64,000 bases of DNA, taken from the NCBI RefSeq assembly GCF_009687865.1, contig NZ_BLAE01000018.1:37248-101247 (forward strand). The letters are read 5' to 3'. The number at the start of each line of letters is the position of its first letter. Positions within the stretch are counted from its first letter, which is position 1. The notes beneath the pieces are model-generated. The model was not told the DNA's origin. It searched no databases and saw nothing but the letters and a program-made list of their open reading frames with translations. The translations under genes were made by a program, and so were the position numbers. This DNA is from Acrocarpospora macrocephala. Its GTDB lineage: Bacteria > Actinomycetota > Actinomycetes > Streptosporangiales > Streptosporangiaceae. Positions 18,049 to 64,000 of this stretch are shown here, piece after piece.

Positions 18049-18167
18049 GCTTGGCCGCGACTGTGTCTGGACTGAGGAACGCAGGTCGCGAAGCGGCCGG
18101 AGTGACGAGGGAAGACACAGGCTGAAGGCGGCCAAGCCCGCCGATCCGGAGGATCGGCCATAAACAC
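18049..18167. repeat. Dispersed structured repeat, copy 1
   Basis: A 119-nt element just past the icmA stop codon. Outer arms GGCTTGGCCGC (18048-18058) and its complement (18128-18138) enclose CTGTGTCT (18061-18068) paired with AGACACAG (18113-18120), an inner GGTCGC-GAA-GCGGCC hairpin, and a following CCGATCC-GGA-GGATCGG hairpin (18141-18157). A near-identical copy occurs at 53890-54007, with changes that keep the stems paired, and a partial core copy lies at 30618-30665. Confidence 0.8.
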
Positions 18168-18169
18168 GG

Positions 18170-19834
18170 TCAGAATCGCGGCGGTTCTGTGTATGTGCCC
18201 CATTCTTCGCGGAGCACATCGCAGATTTCACCCAGCGTCGCCTCGGCCCGGGCGGCCACCAGCATCGGTTCGATCATGTTCTGGTCGGTACGCGCCGCAT
18301 CCACCAGAACGGCCAGCGCCGCGTCCACCGCGCTCTGATCCCGCTTGGCCCGGCGTTCGGCCAGCACCCGCCGCTGCTCGGCCTCCACCTCGTGGCTGAC
18401 CCGCAGGATCTCCAGCGGCTGCTCGGTGGTCCCGGTGTGACAGTTCACCCCCACCACGCGCTTGTCGCCCTTCTCCAGCTGCCGCTGGTAGTCGAAGGCG
18501 GCTTCGGCGATCTCGGCCATGAACCAGCCGTCCTCGATGCCGCGCAGCAGCCCGGAGGTGATGTCACCGGTCCCCATCTCCCGGATCTTCGCGAAGATCT
18601 CCTCCGCCTCGGCCTCCAGCCGGTCCGTGAGCGCCTCCACATACCAGGAGCCGCCGAGCGGGTCGACGACGTTGACCACCTCGGTCTCCTCCATGATCAC
18701 CTGCTGGGTGCGCAGCGCGATCTCGGCGGCCTTCTCCGACGGCAGCGCCAGCACCTCGTCCAGCGCGTTGGTGTGCAGCGACTGGGTGCCGCCCAGCACC
18801 GCGGCCAGCGCTTCCACGGCGGTTCTGACGATGTTGTTGTCGGGCTGCTGGGCGGTGAGCGAGACCCCGGCGGTCTGGGTGTGAAAGCGCAGCCACTGCG
18901 CCTTCTCGGTGCGCGCGCCGTACACCTCGCGCATCCAGCGGGCCCAGATGCGGCGGGCGGCGCGGAACTTGGCGATCTCCTCGAAGAAGTCGATGTGCGC
19001 GTCGAAGAAGAAGGACAGGCCGGGGGCGAAGACGTCCACGTCCAGGCCGCGGGACAGGCCCAGCTCGACGTAGCCGAAGCCGTCGGCGAGGGTGAAGGCC
19101 AGCTCCTGGGCGGCCGTGGAGCCGGCCTCCCTGATGTGGTAGCCGGAGACCGACAGCGGCTTGTAGGCGGGCACCTCGGCGGCGCAGAACTCCATCAGGT
19201 CGCCGATCAACCGCAGATGCGGCTCGGGCGCGAACAGCCACTCCTTCTGCGCGATGTACTCCTTGAAGATGTCGGTCTGCAACGTCCCGTTCAAAGCCCG
19301 CAGCGGTACGCCCTGACGCTCAGCCGCCACCACGTACATACAGAAGATCGGCACCGCGGGTCCGCTGATCGTCATCGAGGTGGTCACCTCGCCCAGCGGG
19401 ATGCCGTCGAAGAGCAGGTCCATGTCGAGCGCCGAGTCGATGGCCACCCCGCAGTGCCCGACCTCGCCGAGCGAGTGCGCGTCATCGGAGTCACGCCCCA
19501 TCAGCGTCGGCATGTCGAACGCGACCGAGAGCCCGCCCCCGCCCGCGCCCAGAATCATCTTGTAGCGCTCGTTGGTCTGCCGCGCGTTCCCGAACCCGGC
19601 GAACTGCCGGATCGTCCACGGCCGCCCCCGATAGCCGGTCGCGTGCAGGCCGCGCGTGAACGGATACTCCCCCGGCCACCCGATCCGCTCGAACCGGGGA
19701 TCGGCGGCCTGCGGCCCGTAAACGGGATCGACCGGCAGGCCGGACAGCGTCTTGAACTCGCGGTTCCGCTTGCTCGCCGCGTCGTATCTGGCCTGCCAGC
19801 GGGCACGCCCAGCCTCGGTCTCGTCCATAGCCAA
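18170..19834 (-). CDS. icmA: Isobutyryl-CoA mutase large subunit
   Basis: A 554-residue B12-dependent acyl-CoA mutase large subunit with the TIM-barrel domain only; it lacks the C-terminal cobalamin-binding domain, which must come from a separate small subunit (IcmB), not seen here. Residues that separate the two mutases are visible: F78 in TIRQFAGFG and Q196 in EYIAQKEWL. As I recall the family, methylmalonyl-CoA mutase has Tyr and Arg at these positions and isobutyryl-CoA mutase Phe and Gln with the same 118-residue spacing. It therefore should interconvert isobutyryl- and n-butyryl-CoA. The C-terminus [12 protein letters not shown] is typical. MeaB lies 4 kb away. Confidence 0.88.
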
Positions 19835-22653: not shown

Positions 22654-22700
22654 AGACATTCGGCTCTTAAAGACCGACGCGAAGTACGGCGGGTCACCCC

Positions 22701-22835
22701 GCGGGTGGGCAGGGCGGACACGTAGGCCGACATAAGACCGTGCCAGAGACCACCGCGCCCGCGATGGCCGCTGACCAGCGGCTAACGAGAGGCTAGCTAT
22801 CACGGTCGGCCGGAGTGTCCGCCCTGCCCACCCGC
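22701..22835. repeat. 135-bp fold-back element with perfect 21-bp arms
   Basis: The arms 22701-22721 (starting GCGGGTGGGC) and 22815-22835 (ending GCCCACCCGC) are exact inverted repeats. Inside, GGCCGAC (22725-22731) pairs with GTCGGCC (22805-22811), and a central GCCGCTG-AC-CAGCGGC hairpin spans 22767-22782. It fills the gap between convergent DUF4230 and sulfotransferase genes. TACGG flanks both sides, at 22685-22689 and 22836-22840. It may be a MITE or a strong bidirectional terminator. Confidence 0.8.
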
Positions 22836-22868
22836 TACGGACCTCAACCGTTGACACAACCCCAAAGG

Positions 22869-30322: not shown

Positions 30323-30522
30323 ACCTCTACCTTGGCAGATTCCGGCCACTGACCGGTACCGGCCAGCCCAATCGGTACATCACACGCCAGATCCACGTCA
30401 TCGTTGAGATGTCTTTCAAGGCAACACCTTGAGGGAGGAAGACCTACGGCCGGCGTTGAGGGAGGCGCCGGCCGTTGTCTGTCGTACGGCCGATCCTCCG
30501 GTTCGGCGAGCTCAGCCGCTCT

Positions 30523-30621
30523 TTAGCCTTGGCCCGCGGCGTACGCTGCCGCGTCATCTATTTGTCGATCGTCTTGGACTTCCCCCAGAAACTCGACGAG
30601 ATCCGCCGCATGACCGGCCTG
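30523..30621 (+). pseudogene. Fragment of a paralogue of the TrmB/LuxR regulator
   Basis: Translated on the plus strand, this stretch matches residues 153-184 of the adjacent regulator: LALARGVRCRVIY here against EAALARGVRCRAIY, and the same DFPQKLDEIRRMTGL against DLPQKLDEIRRMTGL. The match then stops abruptly at the point where the dispersed repeat (copy 3) begins. No start codon, upstream domain or HTH remains. This is a decayed duplicate, truncated on both sides. Confidence 0.75.
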
Positions 30622-30665
30622 CGTGCCTTCCCTCGTCTCTCCGGTCACTTCGCTCCTTCCGGAGG
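30618..30665 (-). repeat. Dispersed structured repeat, partial copy 3
   Basis: On the minus strand, positions 30653-30627 read GCGAAGTGACCGGAGAGACG then AGGGAAG, matching the core of copies 1 and 2 (GCGAAGCGGCCGGAGAGACG, AGGGAAG) with two differences. The outer arms of the full element are not present. It directly abuts the regulator fragment and overlaps the 3' end of the small membrane protein gene. Confidence 0.65.
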
Positions 30666-53303: not shown

Positions 53304-53966
53304 ATGACACGTGGGGACAACGACCAGCCGGTAGTGCTTTCCAAGATCTACACGCGGACCGGGGACGACGGCACGACCGGGCTCGGGGACATGAGCCGGA
53401 CCAGGAAGACCGATCCGCGCCTGGCCGCGTACGCGGACGTGGAGGAGGCGAACGCGGCCGTCGGGGTGGCGCTGGCCACCGGCGGGTTGCCGGTCGAGAT
53501 CGCCGAGACGCTCACGCTCATCCAGAACGAGCTGTTCGACGTGGGCGCCGACCTCTGCACCCCAGTCACGAAAAATCCGGAATTTCCGCCGTTGCGGGTG
53601 ACGCAGGCGTACATCGACCGGCTGGAGGCGCAGTGCGATCGGTTCAACGCCGATCTCAAGCCGCTGCGCAGCTTCATCCTCCCCGGCGGCGACCAGGCCA
53701 CCGCGCAGCTGCACGTCGCCCGCACGGTCGTCCGCCGCGCCGAACGCACCACGTGGTCGGCCCTGGAGGCCCACGACGACGTGAACCCGCTGACCGCGAC
53801 CTACCTCAACCGGCTCAGCGACCTGATGTTCATCCTCTGCCGGGTCTCCGCGGCGGGCGCCGAAATCCTCTGGAAGCCGGGCGCGACCCGCTTGGCCGCG
53901 CCTGCGTCTGGACTGAGGAACGCAGGTCGCGAAGCGGCCGGAGAGACGAGGGAAGACGCAGGCTGA
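53304..53966 (+). CDS. Cob(I)alamin adenosyltransferase, PduO type
   Basis: A 220-residue enzyme making adenosylcobalamin from cobalamin and ATP. The N-terminal YTRTGDDGTTGLGD loop binds ATP, followed by conserved DVEEANAAVG and RSFILPGG; the C-terminal helix RTVVRRAER carries the conserved arginine pair. Its product is the cofactor for IcmA and other mutases. Residues from about 200 on (ASGLRNAGREAAGETREDAG) are encoded by the dispersed repeat copy 2, so the native C-terminus is probably replaced by repeat sequence. Confidence 0.9.
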   Translation: MTRGDNDQPVVLSKIYTRTGDDGTTGLGDMSRTRKTDPRLAAYADVEEANAAVGVALATGGLPVEIAETLTLIQNELFDVGADLCTPVTKNPEFPPLRVTQAYIDRLEAQCDRFNADLKPLRSFILPGGDQATAQLHVARTVVRRAERTTWSALEAHDDVNPLTATYLNRLSDLMFILCRVSAAGAEILWKPGATRLAAPASGLRNAGREAAGETREDAG

Positions 53967-54007
53967 AGGCGGCCAAGCCGCCGTGCCGGAGGCGCGGCCA
54001 TAGACAC
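53890..54007. repeat. Dispersed structured repeat, copy 2
   Basis: A 118-nt copy of the element at 18049-18167, overlapping the end of the adenosyltransferase gene and ending 2 bp from the DUF2550 stop. GCTTGGCCGC (53890-53899) pairs with GCGGCCAAGC (53969-53978), CTGCGTCT (53902-53909) with AGACGCAG (53954-53961), and CCGTGCC with GGCGCGG (53981-53997, one G-T pair). Where it differs from copy 1, both sides of a stem change together. Confidence 0.8.
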
Positions 54008-54009
54008 AG

Positions 54010-63472: not shown

Positions 63473-63630
63473 GGACTTAGTTTCCCGGATTGAAGGACCA
63501 GTTGTGACGGTAAATCGGCACAGAATCCGACGAAACATTCGCTCGGGTGGGCGATCTGGACGACGGCCGGCGCGTCTACCGGTCTCCCGACGCTAGCGCA
63601 CCCCGCTTGCGAGGCACTTGAACCTTGCCC

Positions 63631-64000
63631 TCAGGAGTACGCGTGCGGGGCGCCCGCTTTGCTGGGCACCCAGCGCGGCGTGTCGGCCGCCTCGTCGCTG
63701 ATCGCGGTCAGCACGGCCTGGCGATACAGGCCGAGGCGGTTGCGCCACTCGCCGATATCCTCGACGTAGCGTTTCGCCACGGGAGCGTCCCAGACGTCGG
63801 TGCTTCTCGCCATCTGGTACGGCTTGTCCAGCGACGTGGTGAGCTGTTCCATCAGCGGGAGGACCTGGAACCAGAGGTCCACGAGGCGCTGGTACTCCGG
63901 GTTGAAGACCCAGGTGGTGGCCTGGCCGCCCGGGGCCAGCAGGTCGGCGCTGGACGGCGCGGGCGGGGTCTCGCCCGGCTGGAGCGGGCGCGGCGCGGGG
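63631..64000 (-). CDS. Hypothetical protein, 5' end outside the window
   Basis: A minus-strand frame open to the window edge, 122 residues to the stop at 63631. It has a proline-rich N-terminal stretch (PPAPSSADLLAPGG) and a helical C-terminal part with EYQRLVDLWFQVL and YVEDIGEWRNRLGLY. No domain is recognised. The helical character is compatible with a WXG-like partner, but that is speculation. Confidence 0.45.
   Translation of the reverse strand, partial: PAPRPLQPGETPPAPSSADLLAPGGQATTWVFNPEYQRLVDLWFQVLPLMEQLTTSLDKPYQMARSTDVWDAPVAKRYVEDIGEWRNRLGLYRQAVLTAISDEAADTPRWVPSKAGAPHAYS

Follow-up and report, generated by a model that had tools for sequence, protein, structure and literature searches.

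The window examined here, a 64,000-nt stretch of DNA from Acrocarpospora macrocephala, carries two copies of a ~118-nt sequence with the same predicted fold, which raises the question of what kind of element they represent and whether it works as RNA or as DNA. An earlier note, made from the sequence alone, had placed them at positions 18049-18167 and 53890-54007, and covariance model matches at 18049-18160 (+) and 53890-54000 (+) bore out both places. Our analysis shows that they belong to a large, mobile, strand-specific folded repeat family. Taken whole, copy 1 spans 18049-18169 (+) and copy 2 53890-54008 (+), and comparison with element-free relatives delimited the inserted DNA to ~18051-18166 and 53890-54008, respectively. 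A degenerate third copy, a remnant consisting of core and tail hairpin pieces, lies on the − strand at ~30480-30663 (covariance model E 0.18).

Copy 1 is neighbored by a methylmalonyl-CoA mutase gene (PF01642), to which it is antisense and whose stop codon (18170-18172, read on the − strand) it adjoins, and by a thioredoxin-TPR gene. Copy 2 has inserted where a cobalamin adenosyltransferase gene (PF01923; 53280-53966, +) would otherwise stop. This protein ends GATR* or GGTR* in relatives; in the window (53880-53966), the native stop is lost to copy 2 and replaced by 24 codons of it, the protein reading 24 residues into the element. Two other length differences were observed in the window. A segment of ~213 nt at 22656-22868, with a long inverted repeat (by eye), is missing at the same place in two relatives and is another small insertion or deletion. 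The extra sequence at 63622-63631 in two sister species, 121-149 nt long and differing between them, did not match the element model and possibly represents other small repeats.

The + strand of the element is laid out as a rod followed by a tail. In copy 1, the 10-bp outer helix P1 pairs 18049-18058 with 18128-18137, and the 10-bp inner helix P2 pairs 18059-18068 with 18113-18122, with one A-G mismatch in this copy. P2 leads into a conserved purine-rich internal loop, formed by GGACTGAGGA (18069-18078) opposite GACGAGGGA (18104-18112), and the rod is closed by an apical hairpin with a C(GAA)G triloop that contains GCGAAGC (18084-18098). On the 3' side of P1 follow the tail hairpin with a C(GGA)G triloop (18141-18157) and the 3' end CCATAAACACGG (18158-18169), for which the usual family form is CCAT..ACA plus CNG. 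The sequence CTGGACTGAGGA was kept exactly in 21 of the 30 rows of alignment A4, which holds copies found without the core pattern (count by eye).

Variants of this layout were observed as well. The own genome contains a 92-nt shorter subfamily, whose apical part reads approximately GGAGC-GNA-GCGAC in three copies, and a 32-nt 5' extension stands beside ten own-genome copies; one more, at L350, is joined to a deleted element. Among the matches listed, the extension occurred only beside the element, a count in which stand-alone extensions could be missed. Three copies (G000:C57:56487, C120:7306 and C79:37720) are preceded by the 5' extension, a truncated element and a common ~50-nt sequence.

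The covariance search of the own and related genomes that the earlier note had proposed revealed far more than two copies. A model built from 20 copies gave 41 matches at E<=0.01 in the own genome among 150 candidates scored, with locus C53 counted on both strands, and BLAST at E<=1 gave at least 51 matches, counting partial ones, of which the strongest other than self reached 3e-53. Such numbers lie far outside what chance would give. The element was present in all five Acrocarpospora genomes searched and matched in at least 65 of 150 genomes of the family and at least 20 of 394 of the class (17 in the window's own family, three in two other families). These copy counts are lower bounds, as the searches of own genome, genus, family and class were capped at 40, 40, 25 and 9 scored candidates per genome, respectively. 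Among the matches listed, the exact core pattern was carried by Streptosporangium, Herbidospora, Nonomuraea, Thermocatellispora, Actinomadura, Kribbella and Virgisporangium; viral contigs had no match to it, and plasmids and phages had no match to copy 1.

The fold that had been proposed for both copies was recovered with all four helices, at RNA folding z-scores of −5.88 (copy 1) and −4.76 (copy 2). The three paired differences between the copies are likewise real: from copy 1 to copy 2, T-A becomes C-G in the inner arms, and in the tail hairpin A-T becomes T-G and T-A becomes G-C. Because both tail-hairpin versions are common alternatives in the family (10/20 and 8/20 own-genome copies), copies 1 and 2 alone would be weak evidence for selection on structure. 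That claim was borne out by alignments of many copies, where the paired changes did not vanish. We used alignment A1, which comprises 20 of 30 fetched loci with tandem, truncated, divergent and inverted copies left out, and alignments A2-A4, which were fitted to the structure of the model. A3 contains 76 diverse copies, matched at E<=1e-6 in 80 loci picked by the exact core pattern, and core conservation within it is therefore given by construction. In A3, 26 of 32 pairs had changed on both sides, double-change cells numbered 537 against a shuffled mean of 160.6, and the covariation score was 0.580 as compared with 0.050-0.084 for slid partners. Between genera, the sequences of P1, P2 and the tail have diverged strongly, with pairing kept.

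The same alignment indicates which strand folds. In the three helices P1, P2 and tail of the 76 rows, we counted 53 G-T but only 8 A-C cells (p 3e-9), which identifies the + strand as the folding strand; neither palindrome correction nor a double-stranded inverted repeat is expected to give such an asymmetry. Folded as DNA, the + strand was again the better one, with −35.4 versus −29.9 and −36.5 versus −32.2 kcal/mol for the + versus the − strand. For copy 2 the DNA fold stood out less, at z −3.55 and with one of 200 shuffled sequences folding equally well.

As expected of a mobile element, empty sites were found in close relatives. The site of copy 1 was empty in three of four relatives and that of copy 2 in all four relatives of the genus, while a further site, flanked by the genes for ATP synthase beta and epsilon (assigned by Pfam), was filled in one sister species only (1/5 genomes). 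Eleven of 17 Acrocarpospora flank pairs could be aligned to fetched relatives, giving element-free relatives at eleven further sites with four exceptions: one of two relatives retained a remnant at L017, one of three a truncated copy at L018, and at L013 and L026 the flank differed over a longer stretch. Element-free relatives were also found at eight Kribbella sites (8/12 flank pairs were assigned a relative among 30 fetched loci; L180 aligns poorly). In addition, at least six of the 76 A3 rows lie inside another copy (read by eye), and head-to-tail arrays of the element are present. The empty sites, together with these nested and tandem copies, demonstrate that the element is mobile.

The best-resolved junctions were GACCC^GCTAAGC (copy 2), CTAG^AGCGG (L018), CCCTAYG^AGGCTACC (L024) and, in Kribbella, GTGCG^GTCATCGC (L168). 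The exact end of the element varies, with several nucleotides lost or gained at some sites, and the resolved sites of copies 1 and 2, Acrocarpospora and Kribbella showed no consistent target duplication; GCT or GTCA stands at both ends of some sites only, because P1 starts with the same letters. In Kribbella, TCA[T/C], the complement of a stop codon preceded by A or G, directly follows the element in 8 of 13 non-nested copies (count by eye), two of the eight, L168 and L214, appearing to be the same site in two species. At L197, also in Kribbella, the first P1 base is the A of the target instead of G, and its partner is T instead of C; this single case hints that the 3' arm of P1 may pair with the target.

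Copies occupy dozens of places and are mostly intergenic. Gene calls from a GC-frame script gave 89 of 96 copies a predicted gene on either side. Between co-oriented genes, 39 copies were sense and 28 antisense (p 0.22), and 22 copies lay between divergent or convergent genes. Copies thus show no significant preference for either orientation, which makes a cis-acting leader or trailer unlikely. Location relative to stop codons, which the earlier note had singled out for checking, was scored at up to 20 nt: 18/43 neighboring stop codons and 6/51 start codons were that close on the 3' side of the element, and 12/52 stops and 7/39 starts on the 5' side. In the near-complete chromosomes G100 and G490, copies on both strands were intermixed and no strong replication-strand bias was seen (18 matches read by eye, nine candidates scored per genome, origin positions not assigned). 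To survey the neighborhood, 600 predicted proteins from 80 loci were clustered and judged by eye; the 25 largest groups look like transport, metabolic and housekeeping families and orthologous neighborhoods, with no transposase-like group among them, and no gene linked to the element was seen. No larger autonomous version stood beside ten partial own-genome copies in a limited look at ~150-170 nt on each side.

Copies also change in place. In a sister species that is ~95% identical over the window region, orthologous copies differ by whole stem modules (L013/L421, L006/L423 and L004/L420), the modules matching other versions in the family. Copies between rplW and rplB of four Herbidospora species have kept their place, and their P2 changes are largely compensated, with some G-T. 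Five copies just upstream of rplB (L121, L123, L192, L199 and L169) come from four Herbidospora species and one Acrocarpospora, the Herbidospora ones being orthologous. Copy L027 (1501-1593; G000:C53:30062-30154) has P2 arms that enclose an inverted inner part, such as hairpin template switching could produce. The stem-module differences, the P2 changes, this inversion and the 5' extension fit, if not fully, hairpin template switching or repeated exchange among copies.

What, then, is the working form of the element? The earlier note had implied an RNA-like element by proposing a covariance model and an RNA-seq check; its claim of selection on the fold stands, and for the working form the GNA loops favor single-stranded DNA. 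The apical loop was C(GNA)G in 20/20, 21/24 and 72/76 rows of A1, A2 and A3, and the tail loop in 20/20, 22/24 and 63/76, respectively. The N of these loops is free, with A, C, G and T all occurring, and the exceptions included C(GNNA)G three times, CCT twice (A2) and some misaligned tails. Counting perfect triloop hairpins of the fetched DNA on either strand, C(GNA)G made up 28/326 away from copies and 42/62 near copies. These counts are suggestive and not proof because the copies are related: A1-A3 are related sets, and a single family passes its GNA loops on by descent, which leaves the counts without independence. GNA triloops occur in RNA too, the RNA version of a GCGAAGC-type mini-hairpin is far less stable, and GGA/GGA internal loops that contain sheared G-A pairs are among the known stable motifs of DNA. 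For DNA, PMC4686876 describes mini-hairpins with GNA or GNNA loops and at least two G-C pairs as extraordinarily stable, GCGAAGC melting at 78 C. We infer that folded single-stranded DNA belonging to a mobile element accounts for the structure better than RNA does.

Two other explanations of the folded repeat can be weighed against this one. If the working form were a structured non-coding RNA, mobile or multi-copy, that binds a protein or acts as a sponge, for instance, and spreads by reverse transcription or template copying, the strong covariation and the one-strand wobble bias would be accounted for as well as by single-stranded DNA; the purine-rich internal loop would also appear RNA-like, and some copies, such as those between rplW and rplB in the four Herbidospora species, are sense inside operons. 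An RNA is at odds, however, with the lack of a significant orientation bias and of an Rfam family at threshold, with loops that are mostly GNA triloops instead of GNRA or UUCG tetraloops, and with the finding that reverse transcriptase (PF00078) was undetected in six carriers, all draft genomes (G003, G026, G031, G036, G110 and G148), in which it may still have acted in the past. We regard an RNA working form as possible, at a chance of roughly one in four. The repeats might instead be static or cruciform, spread in ancient times and with stems kept perfect by template-switch correction and gene conversion and not by selection. The differing stem modules of orthologous copies, which match other family versions, and the inversion in L027 speak for such processes. 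Yet correction of palindromes keeps both strands complementary and would not produce the observed G-T excess, would not keep an unpaired core or GNA loops across genera, and is hard to reconcile with the many insertions that are missing in close relatives; we consider a static repeat very improbable.

A further possibility is that the element belongs to a divergent REP/REPIN system that a Y1 (TnpA-REP/RAYT) transposase mobilizes, or is left over from an IS200/IS605 element. The lifestyle is the same: intergenic location, hairpins, tandem copies and no consistent target duplication. Y1 transposase (PF01797) was found in 55 of 150 family genomes and reverse transcriptase in 62, and four of five Acrocarpospora genomes, among them the own one, possess both. 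According to PMC8266576, TnpA-REP makes its cut at CT next to the REP, and the Acrocarpospora P1 starts G|CTT. Against this origin, Y1 was undetected in carriers G003, G026, G031, G036, G085, G110, G130 and G148; five genomes of Herbidospora (g33) are among the carriers without a detected Y1. In G003, G026, G031, G036, G110 and G148 reverse transcriptase was undetected together with it; since these genomes are drafts, a gene of either kind could have been missed. Neither Y1, undetected in several element-rich drafts, nor reverse transcriptase, undetected in several draft carriers, follows the element in its distribution, and neither is supported as a required partner. Furthermore, no GTAG-type tetranucleotide is fixed before P1, where left flanks vary (read by eye), unit length and internal loop differ from 20-50 nt REPs, and the survey by eye of the 25 largest protein groups near 80 copies had yielded no transposase-like group. 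In our judgment, an origin from these Y1-moved systems is improbable, though less so than a static repeat.

No family matching the element was found in Rfam or in the literature searched. Rfam 15 gave no match at gathering score in the window and only low relaxed matches, consistent with the earlier note, which could name no family with this layout. PrrB_RsmZ in the copy 1 region (18 bits against a threshold of 44) was rejected as a chance match to GGA-rich sequence, and SAM-SAH in the copy 2 region (12.6 against 40) lies outside the element. A hammerhead-like reading of CUGAGGA was dropped as the geometry of the cleavage site is missing. The repeat is not described in the literature searched, and for a few genus and repeat words each, PMC11109978, PMC8632094 and PMC2267715 held no mention of element-carrying genera.

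Several described elements share features with the family and differ from it in others. Portions of PMC8266576 define a REP as a 20-50 nt palindrome after a conserved tetranucleotide, mostly GTAG, and portions of PMC8266576 and PMC3116915 report one strand of REP/REPIN as the substrate in vitro. Like REP/REPIN, the element is short, intergenic, hairpin-forming, non-autonomous and mobile with tandem clusters, whereas it differs in its ~118 nt, four helices, conserved internal loop and lack of a fixed GTAG, and in the carrier genomes in which the Y1 transposase TnpA-REP (RAYT) was undetected. We therefore did not file it as a REP despite its REP-like working, as both the tetranucleotide and a Y1 partner in all carriers fail. 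Non-autonomous IS200/IS605 derivatives share single-strand hairpins near the ends and insertion without clear target duplication; unlike them, the element has a fold of a single rod plus tail hairpin and a Kribbella target that matches its own 5' arm, and no Y1 or tnpB remnant was noticed. According to PMC10969869, MITEs are defined by inverted repeats at their termini and by directly repeated target sequence. The element resembles classical bacterial MITEs in being miniature, non-autonomous and intergenic, with insertions that vary between relatives, but its tail hairpin lies beyond the outer arm, so that there are no true terminal inverted repeats, it has no consistent target duplication, and one strand is favored. 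BOX elements of Streptococcus pneumoniae are likewise modular, structured, dispersed repeats whose modules multiply; the element is set apart from them by description and not by sequence, namely by its layout and its actinomycete host. HEARO, the IscB-associated RNA, is likewise structured and mobile and prefers targets adjacent to (A/G)TGA-like sequence. However, relaxed Rfam searches around both copies gave no HEARO match, and no such gene was noticed nearby (by eye).

Taken together, we consider it somewhat better than an even bet that the family is a non-autonomous ~118-bp miniature mobile element that works as folded single-stranded DNA and is REP-like in behavior. Both its single-stranded working form and a trans-acting enzyme made elsewhere are inferred. 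The + strand would be exposed as single-stranded DNA at a replication fork or another gap and would form a pair of hairpins, capped in most cases by C(GNA)G, on either side of the purine-rich internal loop. A candidate enzyme encoded elsewhere in the genome, perhaps HUH-like or another single-strand-specific recombinase, might recognize the loop and the fold and make two cuts, one immediately outside P1 and the other close to the ACA/CNG end. The released strand would then be joined into a new site, which in Kribbella would often be G^GTCA at gene ends. More tentatively, and with the odds against it, we speculate that this is a new class of miniature mobile element based on folded single-stranded DNA, with a putative enzyme that is neither Y1 nor reverse transcriptase, recognition of a purine-zipper loop, DNA-favored GNA-capped hairpins and pairing between the 3' arm of P1 and the target (ATGACC versus GGTCAT in Kribbella).

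The repeat is abundant in actinomycete lineages of soil bacteria, Streptosporangium and Kribbella among them, and its insertions at stop codons can lengthen proteins, by 24 residues in the case of copy 2. Its putative mobilizing enzyme could represent a new way of processing single-stranded DNA, and the family may be a natural case of selection on the folding of DNA rather than RNA that can be read in many copies.
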